64,000 nt of DNA from positions 1 through 64,000 of the forward strand of contig JAFGIA010000408.1 of assembly GCA_016929795.1 (NCBI GenBank). The letters run 5' to 3'. Positions 80 to 59,107 of this stretch are shown here, piece by piece. The notes under the pieces were generated by a model, which saw only the letters and a program-made list of their open reading frames with translations, was not told where the DNA came from and ran no database searches. The number at the start of each line of letters is the position of its first letter. Position 1 is the first letter of the stretch. The DNA is from Anaerolineae bacterium (GTDB lineage Bacteria; Chloroflexota; Anaerolineae; JAAYZQ01). The translations under genes and the position numbers were made by a program.

Positions 80-2466
80 CCCAGCAGGCTTGCCACCGTC
101 GTCGTCAGGTCTTCCTGGTCAAACGTCCCCTTCACAATGTACGCGTCGGCGCCGGCATCCAGGCCGCGCCGCCGGTCTTCCTCCTGGTCGCGCGAAGAGA
201 CGATAATGATCGGGACACGCTGGTAGTGTGCTTCTTCGCGCAGCCGCGCTGTCAGCGACAGACCATCCAGGCGCGGCATCTCGATGTCGACGATCAGCAG
301 ATCGTAGAACAGATCTTCCTTGGACGCCTGCTCGATGACGCGCAGCGCATCGAGACCATCGCGCGCCAGGTCGACCCGGTAGCCCTCCGCTTCCAGGATG
401 GTCCTTTCGATCTCGCGCGTGTTGAGCGAGTCGTCGACAACCAGGATGTGAGGCAACCTGGTCGAGGTCTGTGCCTGTTGCACGATTGGAGTGGGGGGCT
501 CGAAGCGAATGGCACGCACCAGCCCCGGCACGTGCAGGATCGGAATGACTGCCCCGTTGGGCGCAATCGTTGCCCCTGCCAGAATGCCGATACGCTTCAA
601 GTGCTTGGGCAGTGGCTTGATCAGTACGTCCTCCTCGTCCACAACCTCATCCACTACAAACCCCACGCGCTCGCCCGCCACCTGGGCTATCACCAGATAG
701 AGCCACTCCTCCGCTGCCCCCGGCCTGCCGGCGCCGCCCGGTGGCGACGGCAATCCGGGGAGCACGTTGCGCAGGCGCTCGATAGGCACAATCTGATCGC
801 GCAGGCGGATCGCCTGCTGATCAACGACCTGGATCACGTCGTCCGGGCGCACGCGCGTCGTCTCGTCGATATAGTTGACAGGCAGGCCAAAGAGATAGCT
901 GCCGACGCGAACAAAGAGGGTGCGCAATGTGGTCAAGGTCAAAGGCAGCGTCAGAGTAAAGCGCGTCCCCTGGCCCGGTTCGGTGTCGACGGTGATGTCA
1001 CCTTTGAGGTCTTCGATCACGTTGCGCCGCACCACGTCGAGGCCGACGCCCCGGCCCGACACGTCGCTCACCACGCGGCTCGTGCTGAATCCGGAGAGAA
1101 AGATCAGGCTCTGCAGCTCGCGCTGCGACATGCTGCGGACCTTCTCTTCGTCCGCCAACTTCTGGTCGAGCGCCTTACGACGGATGGCCTCCAGGTCAAT
1201 GCCACGCCCGTCGTCCTCCACTTCGATCAGAATGCTCCCGCCTGCCGGAAAAGCACGCAACCAGATTGTGCCACGCCGCGGCTTGCCACGCGCTTCCCTG
1301 TCATCCGGTGGCTCCAGCCCATGGTCCACCGAGTTGCGCAGCATGTGCATCAGCGGATCACTCAGTCGCTCCAGCATCTGCTTGTCGAGCTCTGTGCCTC
1401 CGCCCTTTACCACCAGGTCCACCTCTTTGCCCCGCTCGCGTGCCAGGTCGCGCACAGCCCGTGGGAAGGTGTCAAACACCGTCGACACAGGCAACATGCG
1501 CAGGCCAAGGGTGTCTTGCTGCAGCTCCATCACGATCCGCCCCAGCTCTGCCATATGTTCACGGCTCTGCTTGACCAACCGATCCAGCATCTCGACCAGC
1601 ACCTGTCCACTCTGGAGCACCTGGACAAGGAGGGGATCAACATCTGGAGAAAAGCTGCCCTCCTCGCCTGCTACCACGACAGCATCCCCGGCGTAGAGCC
1701 CCAGCAAGCGGCGGTGTGCACGCGCCATCTGCCACACACTGGCCAGATCCTCCTGGCGCATCTCGGCCCGCTTTTGCGCGGCAATCACCTCCCCTGTCAG
1801 GCGGATCGTCTTGTCGAGCTTGGGCGCGCTCACCCGAATACGCTCCTCTACCATGCGCGGCGCCGCGGCACGGGGCACCTGAGATGGCGCCGCCGGCTTG
1901 GGCACACCCCCTGCCAGCTCGACAGCGGCGGGCAGGGGCAGTTCTGGCGCCGCCGCGGCAACATCCTGTAGCACCTCGGCGGGGGGCTCGACAGGCTGGT
2001 CCGCCGGTGCAAAGCTCACCGGCGGTGCGGGATGGCGCGGCGGCAGATCCACCGTCTCACCCTGGGCGGCCCGCTCCAACAGGCCGACGATCTCGTCGAC
2101 GACCACCTCACCCTCGCGCCCATCCACCACAGCCTGGCGGCTAGCATCGATCACGTCGAGAGAACGAAAGATCAGGTCGCACAGGGCAGGTGTTGGCGCC
2201 AGCCGGCTCTCCTTCACCTCCAGCAACAGGTCCTCGAGCTTGTGGGCAACCTGGTTGATATCCTTGAAGCCCATCATCCGTGCCGAGCCTTTGAGTGTGT
2301 GCGCTGCACGCAGGATCTCGGCCATCAGCTCCTGTCCGGAGGGCGTCGACGGATCGGCGTCTGCCTCAGCGCGTTCCAGGCGCAGCACGCCGTCGTTCAG
2401 CTTTTGTAGATGCTCCTCGGCCTCTGTGCTAAACTTGCCGATAAAGAGCGAGCGATCGAACTTCAT
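64..2466 (-). CDS. cheA: Hybrid chemotaxis histidine kinase CheA with C-terminal receiver
   Basis: Central kinase of the chemotaxis array: it autophosphorylates on a histidine and passes phosphate to response regulators. The 800-residue product has an Hpt domain (HTLKGSARMMG, phospho-His about 56), a Pro/Ala-rich linker (145-205), the dimerisation domain, an HATPase domain (N-box Asn about 378, DDGRG at 418-422, GRGVGLDVV at 471), a CheW-like domain (about 510-655) and a receiver domain (acceptor Asp about 727 in LLIVDIEMPRLDG). It is the last gene of the che run, 52 bp after cheR. A receiver fused to CheA is known from gliding and type IV pili systems (FrzE and PilL/ChpA types), so surface motility is possible. 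No separate cheY is visible here. Confidence 0.95.
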   Translation of the reverse strand: MKFDRSLFIGKFSTEAEEHLQKLNDGVLRLERAEADADPSTPSGQELMAEILRAAHTLKGSARMMGFKDINQVAHKLEDLLLEVKESRLAPTPALCDLIFRSLDVIDASRQAVVDGREGEVVVDEIVGLLERAAQGETVDLPPRHPAPPVSFAPADQPVEPPAEVLQDVAAAAPELPLPAAVELAGGVPKPAAPSQVPRAAAPRMVEERIRVSAPKLDKTIRLTGEVIAAQKRAEMRQEDLASVWQMARAHRRLLGLYAGDAVVVAGEEGSFSPDVDPLLVQVLQSGQVLVEMLDRLVKQSREHMAELGRIVMELQQDTLGLRMLPVSTVFDTFPRAVRDLARERGKEVDLVVKGGGTELDKQMLERLSDPLMHMLRNSVDHGLEPPDDREARGKPRRGTIWLRAFPAGGSILIEVEDDGRGIDLEAIRRKALDQKLADEEKVRSMSQRELQSLIFLSGFSTSRVVSDVSGRGVGLDVVRRNVIEDLKGDITVDTEPGQGTRFTLTLPLTLTTLRTLFVRVGSYLFGLPVNYIDETTRVRPDDVIQVVDQQAIRLRDQIVPIERLRNVLPGLPSPPGGAGRPGAAEEWLYLVIAQVAGERVGFVVDEVVDEEDVLIKPLPKHLKRIGILAGATIAPNGAVIPILHVPGLVRAIRFEPPTPIVQQAQTSTRLPHILVVDDSLNTREIERTILEAEGYRVDLARDGLDALRVIEQASKEDLFYDLLIVDIEMPRLDGLSLTARLREEAHYQRVPIIIVSSRDQEEDRRRGLDAGADAYIVKGTFDQEDLTTTVASLLGRAAP

Positions 2467-2518
2467 ACCACGTCTTCCCTTTCTATCGCCCGGCCGCTTC
2501 TCCGCCTATCGTACTGTG

Positions 2519-4063
2519 TCACCGGCTCTGTTCCTTCCGCTGCCGCGAACGGGCCAGGTGAGTGTGGCATGCGCGGCGCATCAGGTCATCAGATATGCCT
2601 GCCAGGCTCACCCGTGACGAGCGTGCACCTTTCCGATCGAGGATGTTGAGCGTGTTTTCGTACTCGCGCCTGGCCTCGGCGGGCAACCCGAGCATCCGGT
2701 ACGTGTCGCCGAGAAAAAAGTGGGCCTGGGGATCGTCGGGTCGCAAATAGATGGCCTGCTTGAGTGTACTCACCGCTTCCACGTCGCGGCCCTGCTGGCG
2801 ATAGCCCAGTCCGAGCAGCAGGTAGGCGTCGGGATGCCACGGATTCCCATCCAGAACACGACGGCAGATCTGGTTGGCATCGTCCGGCTTCCCTTGCTGC
2901 AGCAGGATGGCAGCGTGCAGGCAGGACGCTTCAGGCTGCGCGGCATCTAGTGGCGACAGTAGATCAAGGTGGTGCAGCCCGGCGTCGTACGCCTGCTCCT
3001 GGAAGGCACGACGCGCCGCCTCGAGTGCAGGATGATCTTGGCGGCGCGGGACACGTGGTGCCGGCGAGGCAGGTGAAATCTTGGGCGCTGCCACGGTCCC
3101 GAGGCGGATTGGCGACGCAGGCAACCGGGTGCGGGCATGGGCAGACGCCACACTCCCCGCACGCGCAGGTCGCAGGGGACGCCGGATACCACGCTCCGGC
3201 ACCTGGCTCTGCTCCTCTGCCACAGCCGGCGTTTTGCGAAAGGCGAATCCGTCACCTAACGACACGAGGGAGAGGCGCCCCCGATCGTGGCCCAGCGTCT
3301 CTGCCGAGGCAACGAACAGGTAGCCGCCCTCGCGCAGCAAACCTGCCAGGCAGGCGTTGAGGCGCTCGCGCATCGGTTCGTCGAAATAGATCGTCACGTT
3401 CCGGCAAAAGATAACGTCAACGCCGCCCAGCACTTCCGGGGCAAGGTCCGACGGCAAGCAGGGCGACGCCAGGTTGTGCATGCGAAAGGTGACAAGGCGC
3501 GCCACCTCTGGCACCACACACCACCTGTCGCCGCGCCTCGTGAGATAGCGCTGCCGCAGTGCATCAGGCACGAGGCGCACGGCGCGCTCGCCATAGCACC
3601 CCAGCCTGGCATATTCAAGTGCGGTCGCGTCAATATCGGTGCCGACAATGGTGGCCTCAAATGGAACACCCGTTGTGTATTGGGAATCGGCCAGGGTCAT
3701 GGCCAGGGAATAGGCTTCTTCCCCCGTCGCGCACCCGGCACTCCAGAGGCGCAGATCAACCCCAGCCCCCTCTCGTCGTCGGTTGGCGAGCAACTCGGGC
3801 AAGACGCGATCACGCAGCACCTCGAACTGCCGTGGCTCGCGAAAAAAGTAGGTCTCTTTGTTCGTCAAAGTTTGAACCAGGCTGTTGAGCTCTGCGCCCC
3901 CCTCGCGCAGCAGAGGCCAGTAGGCAGAAGAGTCCGGGAGCGAGAGTCTCGCGACCCGCCGTCCCACCGCCTGCACCAAAGCCCCGCCGCTGAGCAACGA
4001 CGCGTCCAGGCCGCTGTATGCCTTGATCGCCTCGAACACCCAACCTGGAATCTCCACACCCAT
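2519..4063 (-). CDS. cheR: Chemotaxis protein methyltransferase CheR with TPR repeats
   Basis: SAM-dependent methylation of receptor glutamates, opposing CheB. The N-terminal CheR fold shows NKETYFFREPRQF, the SAM-binding stretch LWSAGCATGEEAYSLAM, and CRNVTIYFDEP. A Ser/Pro/Arg-rich linker follows, then about 100 residues of TPR-like helices (YLLLGLGYRQQGRDVEA and YLRPDDPQAHFFLGDTYR). CheR-TPR fusions are known in Frz-like systems (FrzF). The frame is open to 4135, but the ATG at 4063 (MGVEIPGWVF) begins the conserved domain and has a purine-rich stretch upstream, so it is preferred. It lies between cheB and cheA. Confidence 0.92.
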   Translation of the reverse strand: MGVEIPGWVFEAIKAYSGLDASLLSGGALVQAVGRRVARLSLPDSSAYWPLLREGGAELNSLVQTLTNKETYFFREPRQFEVLRDRVLPELLANRRREGAGVDLRLWSAGCATGEEAYSLAMTLADSQYTTGVPFEATIVGTDIDATALEYARLGCYGERAVRLVPDALRQRYLTRRGDRWCVVPEVARLVTFRMHNLASPCLPSDLAPEVLGGVDVIFCRNVTIYFDEPMRERLNACLAGLLREGGYLFVASAETLGHDRGRLSLVSLGDGFAFRKTPAVAEEQSQVPERGIRRPLRPARAGSVASAHARTRLPASPIRLGTVAAPKISPASPAPRVPRRQDHPALEAARRAFQEQAYDAGLHHLDLLSPLDAAQPEASCLHAAILLQQGKPDDANQICRRVLDGNPWHPDAYLLLGLGYRQQGRDVEAVSTLKQAIYLRPDDPQAHFFLGDTYRMLGLPAEARREYENTLNILDRKGARSSRVSLAGISDDLMRRACHTHLARSRQRKEQSR

Positions 4064-4122
4064 TCCCTCGACGTGCCCCCCTCTCCCCAGGGAACTCACC
4101 CTAGCCGCAATACCTTTCAAAT

Positions 4123-4166
4123 AAGGCCCAAGCACCCGTCCCCGGGGGCGGCCCGAGACGGGCCTT
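4123..4166 (-). terminator. Possible hairpin between cheB and cheR
   Basis: AAGGCCC (4123-4129) pairs with GGGCCTT (4160-4166). A competing inner stem CCCGTC/GACGGG (4135-4140 / 4157-4162) is also possible. On the minus strand the arm is followed by ATTTG, a poor U-tract. It may be a weak terminator or an mRNA-stability structure that partly separates cheB from cheR and cheA. Confidence 0.3.
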
Positions 4167-4191
4167 GGCGCTTATTCAAAAGTTATTGACC

Positions 4192-5292
4192 CTAACCGCG
4201 CACCTGGCGCACGACCGCGGCGGCGATCTGATCAATCGGCAGCACCTCATCCGCGGCATCCATCTCGACGGCTGCACGTGGCATGCCAAACACGACGCAC
4301 GAACCGGCATCCTGGGCAATCGTATGGCCACCGGCGGTACGGATGGCCTTCAGCCCACGCGCACCGTCGCTGCCCATTCCGGTGAGCAGCACGCCGATGG
4401 CGGTGCTGCCATAGTGCCGCTCTACAGAGTCAAAGAGTGCATCCACTGCCGGCCGCTGGCCATCCATCGGCGGCGTGTCGAGTAAGGCCAGCCGGCCGCG
4501 CCGCGCCACACGGGTATGGCTCCCCGTAGGCGCAATGTACACCGTGCCCGCCTCCATCTCCTGGTCCTGCTTCGCCTCCTGCACCCTGAGCGAGCTGACA
4601 CTATTCAGCCAACTCACCAGCCCGGGTACAAAACCATCGGCGATGTGCTGTACCACCACCACGGCCGCCGTCAGGTTCGGCGGCAGGTCGGCGAGGAGGC
4701 GTGCGAGGGCTGCCGGCCCGCCCGTGGACGCTCCGACGGCGACTAGCCGCTCGCCCCCAGCGTGAGCCGCGATGGGCGCCATGACGGGAAGCACGCGCGT
4801 AGTCGGCGCAGCCTGCCGCCCTCGCACGTGGGTAGCGACCTTTACCTGGGCCAGCAGCTTGACACGCCGCGCGAACCGCTCCCACTCGGCGGGCCCGGTG
4901 CCCAGATCTGGCTTTTGCATCACCTCGAGCGCACCACCGGAAATGGCACGGTAGGCAACACTCGCCTCGCCGCTTGACGTGACCACCAGGATCGGCGTAG
5001 GATGGTAGGCCATGATCTCAGAGATCGCTTCCAGGCCATCCATCACCGGCATCATGATGTCCATCGTCACCAGGTCAGGGTGGAGTGCTGCCGTCATCTC
5101 GACGGCGATCTCGCCATTCTCTGCCTGGCCCACGACCTCGATCCCGGGGTCCTCTTCCAAGATCGAAGTGATAATATCACGTGCGAGAGGTGAATCATCG
5201 ACGACGAGAACGCGAACCCTGGCGCTGGTGGAACCGGGCTGAATGTTCCCAGAGAAACCTATGGCGTGGCTGTTGTGATTCACCCGTGACAC
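4192..5292 (-). CDS. cheB: Protein-glutamate methylesterase CheB
   Basis: Receiver-regulated methylesterase/deamidase acting on chemoreceptors. The 366-residue protein has a receiver domain (VLVVDDSPLARD, acceptor Asp about 78 in LVTMDIMMPVMDG), a linker, and the catalytic domain with Ser about 189 (GASTGG), His about 216 (VVQHI) and Asp about 309 (GMGSDGA). All catalytic residues are present and the length is normal. The ATG start is 15 bp downstream of the mcp stop, indicating co-transcription with the receptor upstream. Confidence 0.96.
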   Translation of the reverse strand: MSRVNHNSHAIGFSGNIQPGSTSARVRVLVVDDSPLARDIITSILEEDPGIEVVGQAENGEIAVEMTAALHPDLVTMDIMMPVMDGLEAISEIMAYHPTPILVVTSSGEASVAYRAISGGALEVMQKPDLGTGPAEWERFARRVKLLAQVKVATHVRGRQAAPTTRVLPVMAPIAAHAGGERLVAVGASTGGPAALARLLADLPPNLTAAVVVVQHIADGFVPGLVSWLNSVSSLRVQEAKQDQEMEAGTVYIAPTGSHTRVARRGRLALLDTPPMDGQRPAVDALFDSVERHYGSTAIGVLLTGMGSDGARGLKAIRTAGGHTIAQDAGSCVVFGMPRAAVEMDAADEVLPIDQIAAAVVRQVRG

Positions 5293-48584: not shown

Positions 48585-48712
48585 AGCCAGGCAGCGAGGT
48601 TGCTGCGAGCACGACTCTTTGTCGACAAAGGAGGTGAGGTCTATTTCCGACACGTCCACCGACCTTTAAAAGCAGTACGAAATCCATTGAAGAGTTGGAA
48701 AGGAGAGAAAAG

Positions 48713-49609
48713 ATGAAGCGTAATCTATGGCTGGTGGCTCTGCTCCTGTTGAGTGCGATGGCCCTCGTGCTGGCGGGGTGCGGCGAGCCCGAGTTGGGCA
48801 CTGCAGATAACCCGATTATCATGTCTTTTGTTCCCTCGGGCGACACGCAAGAGATTATTGCCAGCGGCGACACGCTCGCCCAGATGGTCAGCGAGCGGAC
48901 AGGCCTGACCATCAAGGCGAACGTCGGCACCGACTTTGCGGCGGTGCGCGAGGCAATGGGCGCAGGCCAGGCACACATCGGCTGGCTGAACACCTTCAAC
49001 TATGTGCTGGCGGCGGAAAAATACAACGTCGCCGTCGGCCTGGTGACCGAGCGCTATGGCACGACCTACTATGCCGGCCAGATCAACGTGCGTGCCGACA
49101 GCGGCATCACCTCGCTCCAGGATCTGAAGGGCAAGGTCATGTGCTGGGTGGACCCGAACTCGACCTCCGGCTATATCATCCCGCGCATCATGCTCGCGGC
49201 TGAGGGGATCGATCCCGACGCCGATTTTGCACGCACGGTCGAAGCCGGCTCGCACAACAATGTCATCGTCCAGGTCTACAATGGAGAGTGCGACGCAGGA
49301 GCCACCTACGCCGACGCGCGCAGCTCTGTGGCCGAGGATTATCCTGATGTGAACGAGCAGATCGTGGTGCTGGCGACCACGACCGAGATTCCGAACGACA
49401 GCGTGGCGTTCATCGCCGATTTTCCCGAGGAGATGCGCACGCAGATCGTGAATGCCCTGCTCGAGATCGCGGGGACGGACGAGGGAGTAGCAGCTCTTGA
49501 GAGCCTCTATTCGATCTCGGGCCTGCAGGCGGCCGATGACAGCTTCTACGATCAGTTCCGCGCTGACCTGAGCAAGGCCGGCATCGACATCGAAGAGCTG
49601 GTAAAGTAG
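48713..49609 (+). CDS. phnD: Phosphonate/phosphite-type ABC transporter substrate-binding lipoprotein
   Basis: A 298-residue PhnD-family protein with a lipoprotein signal (LVLAGCGE, Cys about 23) and the family stretches [33 protein letters not shown] and [17 protein letters not shown]. Binds phosphonate, phosphite or hypophosphite outside the membrane. The ATG at 48713 follows AAAGGAGAG. It begins the phnD-phnC-phnE-HAD gene set. Ligand unknown; no C-P lyase or phosphonatase genes are nearby. Confidence 0.9.
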
Positions 49610-49745: not shown

Positions 49746-50525
49746 TTGCTGAGAATAGAGAACCTCACCAAAGTATTCCCCGACGGCACAGTCGCGCTGC
49801 GCAATGTGAGTTTTGAAGTACAAGAGGGCGAGTTCCTGACCATCATCGGCCTCTCCGGCTCGGGCAAATCAACCCTGCTGCGCTGCATCAACCGGTTGAT
49901 CGAGCCCACAGAGGGACGTGTGATCTGGGATGGAGTGGATGTCACCGCGGCCGACAGCAAGGAACTGCGGCACATCCGGCGCCAGATCGGGTTTATCTTT
50001 CAGCAATTCAACCTGGTCCGGCGCAGCAGCGTGATGATCAATGTATTGTCGGGCCGGCTGGGCTATGCCCACCCGGTGATGAGTCTCTTGCACCAATTCT
50101 CAAGCCAGGACCGGCAGCGAGCGCGGCATGCACTGGAGCGCGTCGGCATTGCCGAAAAGACCAACAATCGCGCCGATCAGCTCTCGGGCGGGCAACAGCA
50201 GCGGGTGGGCATTGCGCGCGCGTTGATGCAAGAGCCCCGGCTCATGCTCGCCGATGAGCCGGTCGCCAGCCTCGATCCGGTGCTCGCTCATTCGATCCTC
50301 CAGTACCTCGAGCTCCTGAACCGCGAGGATGGGATCACCGTGCTGTGCAGCCTCCACTTTCTCGACCTCGTGCATCGCTACGCCACGCGTGTGGTCGGCC
50401 TCAAGGCAGGCGAACTGGTATTCGACGGCCTGCCCTCCGAGCTGACAGCGCGGCGCTTCAAGGAGGTGTATGGCGAAGAGGCCGAGATGGTGACCGTCGG
50501 CGGCAGCAGCCGCGCCGCCGAGTAG
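49746..50525 (+). CDS. phnC: Phosphonate-type ABC transporter ATP-binding protein
   Basis: A 259-residue ABC ATPase: [17 protein letters not shown] (Walker A), Q-loop [13 protein letters not shown], signature [15 protein letters not shown] and [13 protein letters not shown] (Walker B), matching PhnC. The TTG start at 49746 is supported by AAGGAG 7 nt before. Twelve bases separate it from phnE. Confidence 0.93.
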
Positions 50526-50537
50526 CCAGGGCGCCAT

Positions 50538-53117
50538 ATGAACGAGAACAGCAGCGCACCATCCAGGCGACTCCTTTCCCCCGATACGGCACCGGCCATC
50601 CCGGCCATCCTTTCTCTGGTCATCCCGGGCAGTGGTCAGTTCGCACTCGGCGAACGAGGGCGCGGCCTTGGCATTCTGGTCACCATCGTCGTAGCCGGCC
50701 TGCTCATCTTCTGGCAGGGTACGGTCGCGCTCATCGCCCCGCTCGTTGCCATGTGGCTCTGGGCCGCGTGGGATGCGTACCGGCTGGCACGCGGACGCAT
50801 CGGCGGCATGGGAGCGTTGCTCCTGCTCGCCGCCCTCATCCTGTATGGCGCCGGCGTGCAGGCCACCGAGGTCCGGGCGGAGCGCATCTTGACCGGGTGG
50901 CCCGCGGTCACTCCCTACCTCCAGGCGCTCACCGAGCCCGAGTTGCTCGAGTATCCCACCGAAGACTTGGTTGGCTCCATCCCCTTCCAGGTGCCATGCG
51001 TCGACCCGCTCCCCCCGCCCGACAAGCAGCCGACCGTCGACCCGCGCGTAGAAACCGCCGTACCGTGTGCCGCCATCGGCGACACAATTGTCGTCCGCGG
51101 CAGCGGCTTTTTCCCCAACACCGAGACTCACGCGCTCTGGACCAATCCGATTGGCGACTTGTCGCGCGTCCTGCAAGAGAGAAAGCCGCTCGTCTTTGAG
51201 ACGGACGATCAAGGGCAGTTCGAGATTTCTTTCCAGGTACCGCTGGCGGTGCCGCTCACGCAATTACCTGCGGAGGGCAAGACCCAGACGCACGTGATCC
51301 GGATCGAGCAGCACCGGCCCTATGGCTCGCTGCAGCCTACAGAAACACTGAGCCTGGTGCTCGAAAAGATTGGCGAGACCATCGCCCTCGCCTTCATGGC
51401 GACGGTGTTGGGCGTCATTTTTGCCGTGCCTGTCAGTTTTCTCGCGGCCCGCAACCTGATGTGGGCCAACCCGGTCACGCGCGCCATTTATTACGTGGTC
51501 CGCACCACCCTGAACGTTGTGCGCTCTATTGAGACGCTGATGTGGGCCATCGTTTTTGCCGTGTGGGTAGGCCTTGGCCCCTTTGGCGGCATGCTCGCGC
51601 TCTTGCTACACACCGTCGCCGCCCTGGGCAAGCTCTATTCGGAGGCGATCGAGAGCATTGATCCCGGGCCGATCGAGGCCGTGCGCTCGACGGGCGCGAC
51701 GTTCCCACAGGTCATCGTCTATGCCGTATTGCCCCAGATCGTGCCCACCTTCCTCTCCTTCACCCTCTACCGCTGGGACATCAACGTGCGCATGTCCACA
51801 GTGATCGGCCTCATCAGCAACGTCGGCCTCGGCTTCCTCGTCATCCAGTGGATCCGCCTCGGCAATCTGCGCGCCATGGCGACGTCGATCATTGCTATCG
51901 TCTTGGTCGTCGCCATCCTCGACTATGTGTCGGGCTGGCTGCGCGAGCGGGTCATCCGCGGTACGACAACGCCCATGCGCCCGGCGGTCGCGCTCGCCGT
52001 GCGCGGCATCGCCATCCTCGGGTTTGCCGCCCTGTTCATCTGGTCGTGGGACGTGTCGAACGTCAGCTTTACCGAGTTCATTCGCGGCGCGCCCGATGGG
52101 TTGGGTATGCTGCGCGATTTTGCCGTGCCCGCCATGTTCGAGCGCCCGACTGAGGAGCACGCGGTCAGCGAACCGCTGCCGGTGCCGTGCACAGCCGGAG
52201 AACCGGCAGCCGGGCAGACGGACGTCGCCGAGCTCGATCTGTCGGTGCCGTGTGGTGCAGTCGGCGAGCCACTTGTCATCCAGGGACACGATTTGCCTGC
52301 GAACCAGCGCATCTCGGTACGCTGGGCGCTTCCCGACGGCGGGTACCTGCGCATCGACCCCGACTGCTGTGTGACAGATGGGGGTGGAAACTTTGCACTC
52401 GAGACGCGGATCAGCCCGCTTATGGAGGTTGAAGAAGGTGGCGAGGTTGCCAGCGTCTCGGTCGTGTGGCAGGAAGTAATCGGGCCGCCCCAGATCAGCG
52501 ACGCGTTCAAAAGCGTAGTCGACCTGTCCATCGTCACCCTGCTGATGGCACTGCTCGCCACGACGCTCGGCTCCGTCTTTGCCATCCCACTCAGCTTTTT
52601 TGCAGCACGCAACATCATGGGCAGCAACCCCATCGGGCGGGGCGTTTATTACGTCACCCGTGGCATCTTTAATCTATGGCGTTCCATCGAGCCGATGATC
52701 CTGGCGCTGATCGCCGCAGCGTGGGTGGGCGTCGGCCCCTTTGCCGGCGTGCTGGCCCTCGCCATCAACAATATCCCCAACCTGGGCAAGCTCTTTTCAG
52801 AGAGCATCGAAGAGATCGACACCGGGCCAGTGGAGGCGATCACGGCTACCGGCGCCAATCGACTCCAAACCCTGGTGTATGCTATTGCGCCCCAGCTCGT
52901 GCCCAAGTTCCTGGCCTTTATCCTCTACCAGTGGGACATCAACATCCGCATGTCGACCGTCATCGGCTATGTCGGCGGTGGTGGCATCGGCCAGTACTTT
53001 CGCATCAACGTCCAGCTCAATCAATATGCGGAAGCCGGCATGGCCGTATGGGCCATCGTCATCATGGTGTGGAGCATGGACTATCTCAGCGCCAAGGCAC
53101 GCGAAGCCCTGACGTGA
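50538..53117 (+). CDS. phnE: Double PhnE permease fusion with two extracytoplasmic beta-domain insertions
   Basis: An 859-residue protein that fuses two PhnE permeases normally of about 270 residues. An N-terminal membrane region (about 20-108; LVIPGSGQFALGERGRG) is followed by a soluble insert (about 150-258), permease 1 (about 270-470, coupling loop IEAVRSTGATFPQVIVYAVL), linker helix, a second insert (about 545-648) and permease 2 (about 655-855, coupling loop VEAITATGANRLQTLVYAIA). Both inserts begin with a Val-Pro-Cys segment and share the pattern VPCxAxGxxxVIxGxxLPxN (copy 1: VVRGSGFFPNTE; copy 2: VIQGHDLPANQR), suggesting an Ig/IPT-like fold and duplication of a whole insert-permease unit. 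One polypeptide would supply both halves of the transporter pore. Confidence 0.9.
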   Translation: MNENSSAPSRRLLSPDTAPAIPAILSLVIPGSGQFALGERGRGLGILVTIVVAGLLIFWQGTVALIAPLVAMWLWAAWDAYRLARGRIGGMGALLLLAALILYGAGVQATEVRAERILTGWPAVTPYLQALTEPELLEYPTEDLVGSIPFQVPCVDPLPPPDKQPTVDPRVETAVPCAAIGDTIVVRGSGFFPNTETHALWTNPIGDLSRVLQERKPLVFETDDQGQFEISFQVPLAVPLTQLPAEGKTQTHVIRIEQHRPYGSLQPTETLSLVLEKIGETIALAFMATVLGVIFAVPVSFLAARNLMWANPVTRAIYYVVRTTLNVVRSIETLMWAIVFAVWVGLGPFGGMLALLLHTVAALGKLYSEAIESIDPGPIEAVRSTGATFPQVIVYAVLPQIVPTFLSFTLYRWDINVRMSTVIGLISNVGLGFLVIQWIRLGNLRAMATSIIAIVLVVAILDYVSGWLRERVIRGTTTPMRPAVALAVRGIAILGFAALFIWSWDVSNVSFTEFIRGAPDGLGMLRDFAVPAMFERPTEEHAVSEPLPVPCTAGEPAAGQTDVAELDLSVPCGAVGEPLVIQGHDLPANQRISVRWALPDGGYLRIDPDCCVTDGGGNFALETRISPLMEVEEGGEVASVSVVWQEVIGPPQISDAFKSVVDLSIVTLLMALLATTLGSVFAIPLSFFAARNIMGSNPIGRGVYYVTRGIFNLWRSIEPMILALIAAAWVGVGPFAGVLALAINNIPNLGKLFSESIEEIDTGPVEAITATGANRLQTLVYAIAPQLVPKFLAFILYQWDINIRMSTVIGYVGGGGIGQYFRINVQLNQYAEAGMAVWAIVIMVWSMDYLSAKAREALT

Positions 53118-53992
53118 TTCGAGTCATCATCGACTTTGACGGGACCCTGACCGCCGAAGAGGCGCAGGCCCGGCCGTTGGCAGAGCGGTCGCTGGATACG
53201 CTGGCCAAGGAGATCATCGGAGCGCCGCGGGCGCAGCTCGCGGCCGATTACGATACTACTCGGGCTCGCCTGCTCGCCAAGCCGCACCGCTACTGGTGGG
53301 AGGTGAACGGCCTGATCGCCTCCTACTGCGACGAGGGGGCATTCATCCTCAACACGACGACGCTGCAGGTCATGCTTGCCAGCAACCCGGCCTATGCCCG
53401 CGCCGTCACCGATTTCTTTCCCCGGTCCGAGTACGACCCCGTCGTCGACTGCACCAATTATCTCTTTCACCGCCACACCGCCGAGCTGCCACCGGCCTTT
53501 CGCCCCGGCGCACGCGAGGCGCTCGATGCCCTCGTCGCCGACCCCGACTGCGAGCCCGTGGTGCTGACCAACTCCCTGGGCAATAAGGTGGCGCGCCTGC
53601 TGGCAGGCCTCGGCTTTGTTGGCGACGTCGCCATCCTGGGTGACACCCGCCAATACGACATGGACCCGGCGTGGGATCATACCTTCGAGCACCCAGAACT
53701 TGGCTCGATCCAGGTGTGGCCCGTCGACGAGCAGCACGCCGTCGACCTGCGCCGGCCCGTCTACTACCGCGCACTCATTGACGCGCTTCGGGGTGACATC
53801 CAACTTGCCGTCGTCGCCGACACCTTCTCACTGCCCGGTGCCCTCCCCCTCCTGATGGGCATCCCCTTCCTCCTCTTGACCACACCCTATACACCCACCT
53901 GGTGCCGTCGTATCGTCGACGACCACCCCCTGGGCTACCTCCTCGACGACATTGCCGCCCTGCCGGCTGCGCTTGAGCAAACTGCCCGATGA
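53114..53992 (+). CDS. HAD-superfamily phosphatase
   Basis: A 292-residue HAD hydrolase: IIDFDGTLTAEEA (motif I, nucleophile Asp in DFDGT), EPVVLTNSLGN (motif II Thr) and LAVVADTFSLPGALPLL (motif IV region). The GTG start overlaps the phnE stop (GTGA), so it is coupled to the transporter. A role in hydrolysing a phosphate ester made from the imported compound is likely but the substrate is unknown; it lacks the hallmarks of phosphonoacetaldehyde hydrolase that I can recognise. Confidence 0.8.
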   Translation: MIRVIIDFDGTLTAEEAQARPLAERSLDTLAKEIIGAPRAQLAADYDTTRARLLAKPHRYWWEVNGLIASYCDEGAFILNTTTLQVMLASNPAYARAVTDFFPRSEYDPVVDCTNYLFHRHTAELPPAFRPGAREALDALVADPDCEPVVLTNSLGNKVARLLAGLGFVGDVAILGDTRQYDMDPAWDHTFEHPELGSIQVWPVDEQHAVDLRRPVYYRALIDALRGDIQLAVVADTFSLPGALPLLMGIPFLLLTTPYTPTWCRRIVDDHPLGYLLDDIAALPAALEQTAR

Positions 53993-57052: not shown

Positions 57053-59107
57053 ATGAACCATTTCCACTCATTTGTTGCCAGGCACGTCCGTTTGGCCCTG
57101 GCAGTCATCATCCTGTTCACGCTCTTGCCCTGGCTCGCACAGCCCACCGCCGGCTCGGCTCCAACCCCAGAAGAGATCGCGCTGACGGCGGCAGACGACG
57201 GAGGGAGTGTCGAGCTGCGCGACGGACAGATCCTCACGCTCCAGCTTCCGGCCAACCCATCCACCGGCTACCTGTGGGAATTGGACGAGCCCGCCGAGGC
57301 AGCGCTGCGCCAGGTTGGAGCGCGCCAATTCAAGCCCGAGTCGAACCTGCTCGGCGCCCCCGGCATCGTCACGCTCCGGTTCGCGCCCGTGCAGAGCGGC
57401 ACCACGCGCCTGGCGCTCGCCTACCGGCGCCCGTGGGAGGAGGCATCCCCGCTGGACACCTTTGCCGTTGACGTCCGCGCCGTCGGTACGATTGACCCCG
57501 CCACCCTCGCCGCATATGAAGCCGCCCAGCCTGCTCCTGCCGAGCCGCCCCGGTCGGTGCCGGCTATGCCTCCCCTCGAGGAACAACCCCAGACCAGGGC
57601 CGCGCTGCCAAGCAGCTTTGACTGGTGCGACCAGGGTGGATGCACCGAGGTCAAAAACCAGGGAGCTTGCGGAAGCTGTTGGGCGTTCGGCACCGTTGGC
57701 CCACTCGAATCGCTCATCAAGCTCAACGGCGGCGGCGACAAGGACCTGTCGGAGCAGTACCTGGTGTCGTGCAACAGCGACGACTGGGGCTGCGACGGGG
57801 GCTGGTGGGCGCACGACTATCACGAGTGGAAGTATATCGCTGACGAGCGGGAAGCCGGTGCACGCTACGAGGCCGACAAGCCCTACCAGGCCGCCGACGT
57901 ACCGTGCAATCCGCCCCACCCGCCCCACGAGCTGATCAGCGGCTGGGCCGAGATCAACCCCTACAGCTCGGTGCCCACCGTCGCCGAAATCAAGCAGGCG
58001 ATCTATGATTACGGCCCGGTTTCCGCCGCCGTCTGCGTCGGCGACGCGTGGGACTATTACTCCGGCGGCCTATTCTCGACCAACGAAACCTGCTCCGGAA
58101 ACGTGAACCATGGCGTCGTCCTCGTCGGCTGGGACGACAGCCTGGGCGCCTGGCGCCTGCGCAACTCGTGGGGACCCGGCTGGGGTGAAAGCGGCTACAT
58201 GTGGATCGCCTGGGGCACTTCGCTCATCGGCTATGGCGCGGCCTACATCAACTATGGCACCGTGCCCCACGGCCCGACGGCCCCCACCAGCCTGACCGCG
58301 ACCGCCGTGTCAGCGCACCAGATCAACCTCACCTGGGTCGATAACAGCACGAACGAAAGCGGCTTCAAGATCGAGCGTTCCCTGTCGGGCACCGGCGGCT
58401 GGCAGCAGATCGCCACCACCAGCGCCAACGCCACGTCGTACGCGAACACGGGCATCGCCGACAGCACCCGCCACTATTATCGCGTCGCCGCTTATAACAG
58501 CAGCAGCGCTTCGTCTTACACCAATGTGGCCTCGGCGGTGACCCCAGGGGCTGGATTCGACACCACGGTTTACCTGCCATTCGGCGTGCGCGGCTATGGC
58601 GAGGCCCCCCCGCCGTCGGGCCTGCCGCTGCACGAGAGCTTTTCGAGCGGCACCGTCCCGCCGCCTGGCTGGACGCTGGTCCAGACGAACCCACGCAACA
58701 CGTGGGAGATCCTGTACAGCTCCAGCAATCCCGAGGGCCTGTATGCTGCGCAGTGCCAGTACGATGAAACGCTCGCTGCCCAAAACGAGGTGTTGCTCAG
58801 CCCATCTTTCACCGCCAGCCGGGCGGTACTCCAGTTCTACTCGGGCGGCAGCATCCACTGGTGCCGCGATACGTACGACAACTGCGACCTGAACGTGTGG
58901 CTGGTCGTGGGGACGTGGGGTGGTGGTGACGACATCTTTGTGCGCACAGCCGACGACGACTGGAGCGCTGAGTGGGCCTGGTCCTACAGCGCCGTCGACC
59001 TGGCACCCTACCTGCCTTCGGGCACGCCCGTGCGCGTCGCTTTCCAATACATAGGCGCAGACGGCGCCCAGATCTTTATCGACGCGATAGACATCGCTGC
59101 ATACTAG
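57053..59107 (+). CDS. Secreted papain-family (C1A) protease fused to chagasin-like inhibitor, Fn3 and C-terminal beta domain
   Basis: A 684-residue exported protein. Signal/anchor helix at about 12-33. Residues about 45-145 match an I42 chagasin-like inhibitor (ANPSTGYLWELDEP, RLALAYRRPWEE). Residues about 185-402 are a C1A cysteine protease with oxyanion Gln about 203 and Cys about 209 (KNQGACGSCWAFGTVG), His about 353 (VNHGVVLVGWDD) and Asn about 371 (NSWGPGWGESGYMWI), all intact. A fibronectin-III domain (about 408-497) and a choice-of-anchor-like beta domain (about 525-684; LHESFSSGTVPPPGW, FIDAIDIAAY) follow. The propeptide typical of papain is replaced by the inhibitor domain, suggesting cis-regulation. 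Confidence 0.9.
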   Translation: MNHFHSFVARHVRLALAVIILFTLLPWLAQPTAGSAPTPEEIALTAADDGGSVELRDGQILTLQLPANPSTGYLWELDEPAEAALRQVGARQFKPESNLLGAPGIVTLRFAPVQSGTTRLALAYRRPWEEASPLDTFAVDVRAVGTIDPATLAAYEAAQPAPAEPPRSVPAMPPLEEQPQTRAALPSSFDWCDQGGCTEVKNQGACGSCWAFGTVGPLESLIKLNGGGDKDLSEQYLVSCNSDDWGCDGGWWAHDYHEWKYIADEREAGARYEADKPYQAADVPCNPPHPPHELISGWAEINPYSSVPTVAEIKQAIYDYGPVSAAVCVGDAWDYYSGGLFSTNETCSGNVNHGVVLVGWDDSLGAWRLRNSWGPGWGESGYMWIAWGTSLIGYGAAYINYGTVPHGPTAPTSLTATAVSAHQINLTWVDNSTNESGFKIERSLSGTGGWQQIATTSANATSYANTGIADSTRHYYRVAAYNSSSASSYTNVASAVTPGAGFDTTVYLPFGVRGYGEAPPPSGLPLHESFSSGTVPPPGWTLVQTNPRNTWEILYSSSNPEGLYAAQCQYDETLAAQNEVLLSPSFTASRAVLQFYSGGSIHWCRDTYDNCDLNVWLVVGTWGGGDDIFVRTADDDWSAEWAWSYSAVDLAPYLPSGTPVRVAFQYIGADGAQIFIDAIDIAAY

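Follow-up and report, generated by a model that had tools for sequence, protein, structure and literature searches.

A single-chain PhnE permease of an Anaerolineae bacterium with a predicted immunoglobulin-like domain in each half

The phnD-phnC-phnE operon in the first 64,000 nucleotides of contig JAFGIA010000408.1 from an Anaerolineae bacterium (hereafter the window) houses an open reading frame (ORF) of 859 amino acids, located between the PhnC gene and an overlapping HAD gene, in which two PhnE permease domains and two EAA loops are found by profile matching and structural modelling. The ORF with two permease units, and the single-chain pair of PhnE domains, had been proposed from the letters of the sequence alone (the original prediction), and both are borne out by the open frame and by the PhnE profile, which matches the chain in two stretches. 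The chain probably makes up the entire permease of a type I (PhnDCE-type) ATP-binding cassette importer and is a variant of a familiar transporter rather than a new machine. The genes of the locus are:

48695–49609 (+): PhnD-type substrate-binding lipoprotein (PF12974, 214.5 bits; TIGR01098, 221.8 bits, cut-off 112.05)
49746–50525 (+): PhnC ATPase (TIGR02315, 337.5 bits, cut-off 266.1)
50538–53117 (+): fused PhnE1-PhnE2 permease with two extracytoplasmic inserts, 859 amino acids (TIGR01097 in two stretches, 471.8 bits for the whole protein, curated cut-off 216.7)
53114–53992 (+): HAD hydrolase (PF00702, 27.5 bits, cut-off 26.4), overlapping the phnE stop via GTGA

Within the permease chain, with TM1 and TM2 standing for the first and second transmembrane helices of a unit and AF2 for AlphaFold2, the parts are:

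50595–50789 (+): N-terminal helical membrane module, residues 20–84 (AF2 helices; DUF5683/DUF6677-like in relatives)
50811–50864 (+): TM1 of unit 1, residues 92–109 (AF2 model; aligns with TM1 of canonical PhnE)
50940–51335 (+): insert 1, residues 135–266, predicted immunoglobulin-like (Ig-like) beta-sandwich
51336–51965 (+): transmembrane core of unit 1, residues 267–476 (TIGR01097 positions 52–251 on residues 269–472)
51639–51698 (+): EAA/coupling loop 1, residues 368–387
51966–52130 (+): linker and TM1 of unit 2, residues 477–531 (AF2 helices 482–507 and 511–529)
52131–52493 (+): insert 2, residues 532–652 (AF2 model; homology to insert 1)
52494–53108 (+): transmembrane core of unit 2, residues 653–857
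52797–52856 (+): EAA/coupling loop 2, residues 754–773

The full chain was modelled with AF2 as a single chain (mean pLDDT 84.7, pTM 0.73). Following the N-terminal helices (20–28, 32–36, 40–60 and 63–84), unit 1 comprises TM1 (92–109), a helical stretch (121–132), strands (141–261) and core helices (269–474, with the coupling helix at 376–383), and unit 2 repeats this order with helices 482–507 (TM1) and 511–529, strands 538–647 and core helices 655–858 (coupling helix 762–770). The coupling loops are separate for each unit, as originally proposed, and their real positions lie 10–15 residues earlier than claimed. The two halves are 36% identical over 378 columns, inserts counted in; the best structural match of the full-chain model is a solved FbpB chain (9j4r), and the two units are predicted to pack as a pseudo-dimer like that of FbpB.

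Each unit is interrupted between TM1 and TM2 by a domain of about 120–130 residues. In an alignment with nine canonical PhnE proteins the inserts fall between the post-TM1 helix and the start of TM2, a placement with which the match to TIGR01097 agrees, since its position 52 comes directly after insert 1. The inserts had originally been described as preceding the permease units, which did not hold, because they sit inside each unit. At the same site eight of the nine canonical proteins possess only a short loop and the ninth (L096) a loop about 20–25 residues longer, and this rules out that the inserts are ordinary PhnE segments. Beta regions are predicted at residues 141–261 and 538–647, and the AF2 model has the main strands in identical order in both. 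When the two inserts are compared on their own, their homology is evident both by blastp (26% identity, E 9e-11) and by profile-profile comparison (probability 98.3, E 2.5e-14). The shared VPC.A.G....V..G pattern noticed at the outset is indeed present at residues 175–188 (VPCAAIGDTIVVRG) and 570–583 (VPCGAVGEPLVIQG), and each insert has a second VPC (152–154 and 549–551). Insert 1 is predicted with high confidence to be an Ig-like beta-sandwich, and by fold, topology and alignment with canonical PhnE the extracytoplasmic beta inserts of the original prediction stand as a prediction.

A Pfam search of the window inserts, suggested at the same time, came back empty, with no family matching at E up to 10. 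In all, 156 inserts were found and 120 non-redundant ones kept, 71 of which, with that of the window, make up a 72-row alignment. Weak matches to PF00960 (neocarzinostatin) occur in 6 of these 72 inserts, the window insert having none; the 19 Pfam families matched by the 72 include no substrate-binding-protein family, which rules out the insert as a substrate-binding domain. Matches of the insert to CD276 and to the SPOP MATH domain were dismissed as common beta-sandwich matches, and the MalF chain is absent among the best 50 matches listed for the insert in either match list, which is no proof of difference. In the annotation of close relatives among the matches listed, PF00528 alone is given and the source names, where given, are phosphonate permease or PhnE, so that current annotation gives no sign of the insert.

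The cysteines of the inserts, with their conservation in aligned fused proteins, are:

50997–50999 (+): Cys154, insert 1 (53 of 53)
51066–51068 (+): Cys177, insert 1 (53 of 53)
52188–52190 (+): Cys551, insert 2 (51 of 53)
52251–52253 (+): Cys572, insert 2 (53 of 53)
52365–52370 (+): vicinal Cys610-Cys611, insert 2 (52 of 53 each)

The two cysteines per insert of the original prediction are thus correct for insert 1 and not for insert 2, which has four (551, 572, 610 and 611). Among the 120 non-redundant inserts 119 have two or four cysteines and one (L110) has zero. Four is the number in insert 2 of the listed fused loci, except L120, and two the number in the inserts of split and single-gene PhnE (zero in L110), the vicinal pair 610-611 being peculiar to insert 2 of the fused type (L120 is without it). 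Both cysteines of the core pair are present in 71 of the 72 aligned inserts and neither in the remaining one (L110). A disulfide in an exported domain would be expected to leave such a pattern, in which the two cysteines occur together or are lacking together. The core pair therefore appears to behave like the disulfide suggested from the start, a reading that rests on the single loss in L110; metal binding may be an alternative. The L110 domain itself (2113–2508, minus strand) is the sole insert found without either cysteine, yet its sequence still follows the overall pattern seen in the other inserts.

Of 8000 candidates scored in the protein search 3552 matched, and the best 120 listed are the window's own protein and 119 others; among these listed matches there are at least 119 other homologues with 62–86% identity over 84–100% of the query. 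An alignment of 40 of the 120 was used to scan genome contigs and yielded 78 loci, 33 of which contain a full-length fused ORF of 848–908 amino acids with the N-terminal module, insert 1, core 1, insert 2 and core 2; a fused ORF of 844 amino acids (L121) lies on a contig of 3.99 Mb. PhnE proteins of more than 700 residues, for which a survey had been suggested, are thus present in many independent Chloroflexota assemblies, the fused full-length loci being, going by title, nearly all in metagenome-assembled genomes (MAGs) of this phylum (Anaerolineae, Caldilineae, Ardenticatenia, Promineifilum, Thermoflexus and the like). Full-length fused PhnE was also seen in two Deltaproteobacteria-titled MAGs with similar isolate names (L028 and L030). 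Among 148 genomes of the phylum to which the L028 genome belongs, only that genome has the full-length form, which likely reflects sporadic transfer or misbinning. In a sample of the class, 174 of 298 genomes match the fused alignment at E≤1e-30 and 25 of the 298 have a full-length single open frame, 24 of them with at least 1396 bits and one (G136) with 706; G404, G385 and G419 looked full length and were split gene pairs in the fetched sequence. In the phylum sample a PhnE match above cut-off is present in 65 of 301 genomes.

The halves differ at the GGGGIG site, which corresponds to residues 424–434 and 810–820 of the window protein. In all 34 fused loci (L001–L033 and L121) half 1 is without GGGGIG and has S/C-D/N-x-G-L/I-G instead, while half 2 retains it in 33 of 34, the remaining one having no pattern match. 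Split phnE1 genes keep GGGGIG in 15 of 17 cases (the other two without pattern match), and half 1 of the other fused types departs too (VAGGGIG, VSGGGIG or SAAG forms). In the AF2 model the half 1 motif is found where one core helix ends (426) and the next begins (431), and the topology would put the GGGGIG site at the outer, gate side. The idea of an asymmetric transporter, also part of the original prediction, gains support from this one-sided loss.

As for known systems, the chain resembles canonical PhnE in that it passes the curated TIGR01097 cut-off with a match in two stretches, has EAA motifs and belongs to a phnD-phnC operon; it differs in having two units, two inserts and an N-terminal module, whereas canonical PhnE is one unit of about 270–335 amino acids in which the TM1-TM2 loop is short. 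The FbpB/FutB single-chain permeases of 12 transmembrane segments (TMS) likewise combine two permease domains, and ThiP is another permease of this kind. The neocarzinostatin/macromomycin/C-1027 fold (PF00960) belongs to secreted chromophore carriers, and the window insert does not match it. GlnPQ and OpuA also have an extra extracytoplasmic domain in the permease chain. In these two the added part is the binding protein proper, whereas the permease of the window has a small predicted beta-sandwich in each half and PhnD is encoded by a separate gene. The P2 loop of MalF, likewise an extracytoplasmic loop domain of a permease, is located in a different loop from the PhnE inserts, and we know of no conserved cysteine pair in it; it is one domain in one of two subunits, while in the window both halves have one. 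MalF-P2 (residues 91–271) of the maltose importer touches MalE and shifts position as a rigid body (PMC3150292; PMC8134467); the PhnE insert may make a comparable contact with its binding protein. The duplication from 6 to 12 TMS has been described, with a ferric porter as example, and one 12-TMS member of the phosphonate (PhnT) family is tabulated in the same source (PMC3654945). Within the listings and opening abstract lines of PubMed Central papers under CC0, CC BY or CC BY-SA licences, and in passages of PMC10574752, no description of a fused or Ig-bearing PhnE was found. No Ig-like inserts are reported there for FbpB/FutB or the 12-TMS PhnT member either, and the window differs from these as a fusion of two insert-bearing paralogues. 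The original view that no transporter with this layout had been described can thus be kept for the Ig-like inserts and not for the fusion: on these sources, fused 12-helix permeases (FbpB, the phosphonate-family member) and a loop domain contacting the binding protein (MalF-P2) are known already. The apparent novelty lies in the Ig-like domains, each with a conserved pair of cysteines, that occupy the TM1-TM2 loops of the two halves.

The reading that we favour is that two paralogous PhnE genes, each with an Ig-like domain in the outward-facing TM1-TM2 loop, became fused and that the inserts act as arms docking PhnD. The fused chain would bind two PhnC, and the Ig arms, stiffened by a disulfide, would stand above the channel mouth, each gripping one lobe of the lipoprotein PhnD so as to keep it in register, much like the MalF-P2 loop with MalE. 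The fusion would fix one of each half per transporter, and this would leave half 1 free to change (GGGGIG to SDAGLG) and to specialise as the gate. Docking of PhnD, close to the original suggestion that the inserts may capture PhnD or the ligand, is the likeliest role of the arms, and we consider this overall reading about as probable as its negation. If the arms do dock PhnD, they would represent a second, independent solution to the problem solved by MalF-P2, with both halves armed. A more elaborate form, unlikely as a whole and put forward tentatively, is an asymmetric, disulfide-locked clamp that would hold the lipoprotein between transport rounds, one Ig arm per lobe, half 1 (SDAGLG) and half 2 (GGGGIG) splitting the gate and docking work; a MalF-P2-like device would then have evolved independently in both halves and been made obligatory by fusion.

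It is possible, if on the unlikely side, that the inserts are structural instead, serving as stiff lids or spacers which support the TM1-TM2 loop and screen or gate the entrance, with no specific contact to PhnD. The first and last long strands (141–152 and 250–261) flank the domain beside helices 121–132 and 269–302, the cysteine pairs suit rigidity, and the identity of the inserts exceeds that of the TM1 segments by little; however, G190, W201, P204 and G206 of insert 1 are invariant in 40 of 40 aligned fused proteins, beyond the needs of a plain spacer. A binding role for something else outside the cell (the ligand, a lipid, cell-wall or S-layer material, or a second partner) we find doubtful. 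Ig-like folds are common binding scaffolds, but no obligatory partner gene accompanies the system, and beyond phnD and phnC no recurring neighbour cluster occurs in more than 10 of the 34 fused loci, a weak argument since many loci are short.

The favoured reading also includes two ancestral genes, and 155 loci, picked from search matches and not a random sample, offer a series bearing on their history: canonical units of about 270–335 amino acids; PhnE with one insert (about 385–575 amino acids, no second unit seen in the stretch); split phnE1 (435–521 amino acids) and phnE2 (380–404) with an insert in each, in 23 loci of 21 genomes; the fused type with both inserts; a fused type of 763–813 amino acids with one insert ahead of core 1; and a fused type of 652–732 without insert. 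The split genes mostly overlap or are no more than 37 bases apart, with gaps of 267–1331 bases in L128, L130, L131 and L134; in L118 and L119 they share the frame with only 3 bases between them, so that loss of the stop would make them one gene. A 127-row tree groups the fused halves with split phnE1 and phnE2, respectively (support 84–89, open forks), and in a 72-row tree fused half 2 joins split phnE2 with support 99.9. Topologies were tested with 72 and 85 of the 127 rows, L120 (901 amino acids, very long branches) being among those left out. One clade of split phnE1 and fused half 1 is rejected (p-AU 0.001, 72-row tree) because single-gene PhnE rows fall among them. The tests do not reject a single fusion shared by the armed (insert-bearing) and the armless fused types, with p-AU 0.50 in the case of half 1 and 0.26 in that of half 2. 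On the evidence of sequences and trees, the fused halves descend from separate phnE1-like and phnE2 genes, and insertion first, duplication second and fusion last is the best reading of the order of events.

The original explanation of the chain, in which an insert-permease unit was duplicated within a single gene, is in line with the identity of the halves and the homology of the inserts, but is very improbable, since one clade of both fused halves is rejected (p-AU 0.0088 with 72 rows, 0.0149 with 85) and 21 genomes have this pair as separate genes. An assembly or frame artefact joining two genes, in favour of which nothing was found, is ruled out for practical purposes by the same open frame in 33 of 78 loci and on the 3.99-Mb contig and by the at least 119 other listed homologues. 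The series, largely from one phylum (canonical, single one-arm PhnE, armed pair, fused armed and fused armless), allows loop-domain gain and half fusion to be tested separately.

Some of these loci have further particularities. In L130 an RRXRR protein (PF14239, 114.3 bits; 3403–4524), which we take to be IscB/IsrB-like, lies between phnE1 and phnE2, with no Rfam match in the locus. In L128 a 997-base gap (2254–3250) separates phnE2 and phnE1, and the single ORF scanned there has no Pfam match. Two genomes have a second, shorter two-unit PhnE (583–585 amino acids) beside the armed fused one (G345:C169 and G559:C22). At the N-terminus, PF18935 matches the module above cut-off in the relative L036 and slightly below it in L122, and a Pfam search gave no such match in the window protein. 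Other PhnE have an RDD membrane domain (PF06271) at this position (above cut-off in L146 and L097, below in L057); the DUF5683-like module of the window type and RDD are exchangeable N-terminal membrane modules.

With regard to the substrate, the PhnD-type product reaches 162.8 bits with the PhnD equivalog TIGR03431, below its cut-off of 261.1; by these scores it is a member of the phosphate/phosphite/phosphonate binding-protein subfamily TIGR01098 and not the PhnD equivalog, so that phosphonate is here a family name and the substrate is assigned only by name. Its ORF contains an ATG at 48713, and a lipobox-like LAGC was read by eye. Genomes of the fused type (25, namely the 24 high-scoring ones of the class sample and G002, with G136 left out) have no PhnJ (0 of 25; E. 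coli control positive) and no phosphonatase above cut-off (0 of 25, but also 0 of 14 controls, hence no positive control), and PstC is found in 24 of 25 at E≤1e-30 and above cut-off in 21. These counts do not back a phosphonate role. The fused PhnE is the only PhnE in 23 of the 25.

Concerning the neighbourhood, the HAD hydrolase adjoins phnE in one of the 34 fused loci, that of the near relative L001, and is no conserved part of the system. Near phnDCE in the fused loci, a histidine-phosphatase-like gene was seen by eye in 9 of 34 and a sensor-kinase-like gene in 7 of 34. Elsewhere in the window (57053–59107, plus strand), a chagasin-type inhibitor domain (PF09394, 72.3 bits) is followed in one chain by a papain-family protease (PF00112, 156.1 bits).
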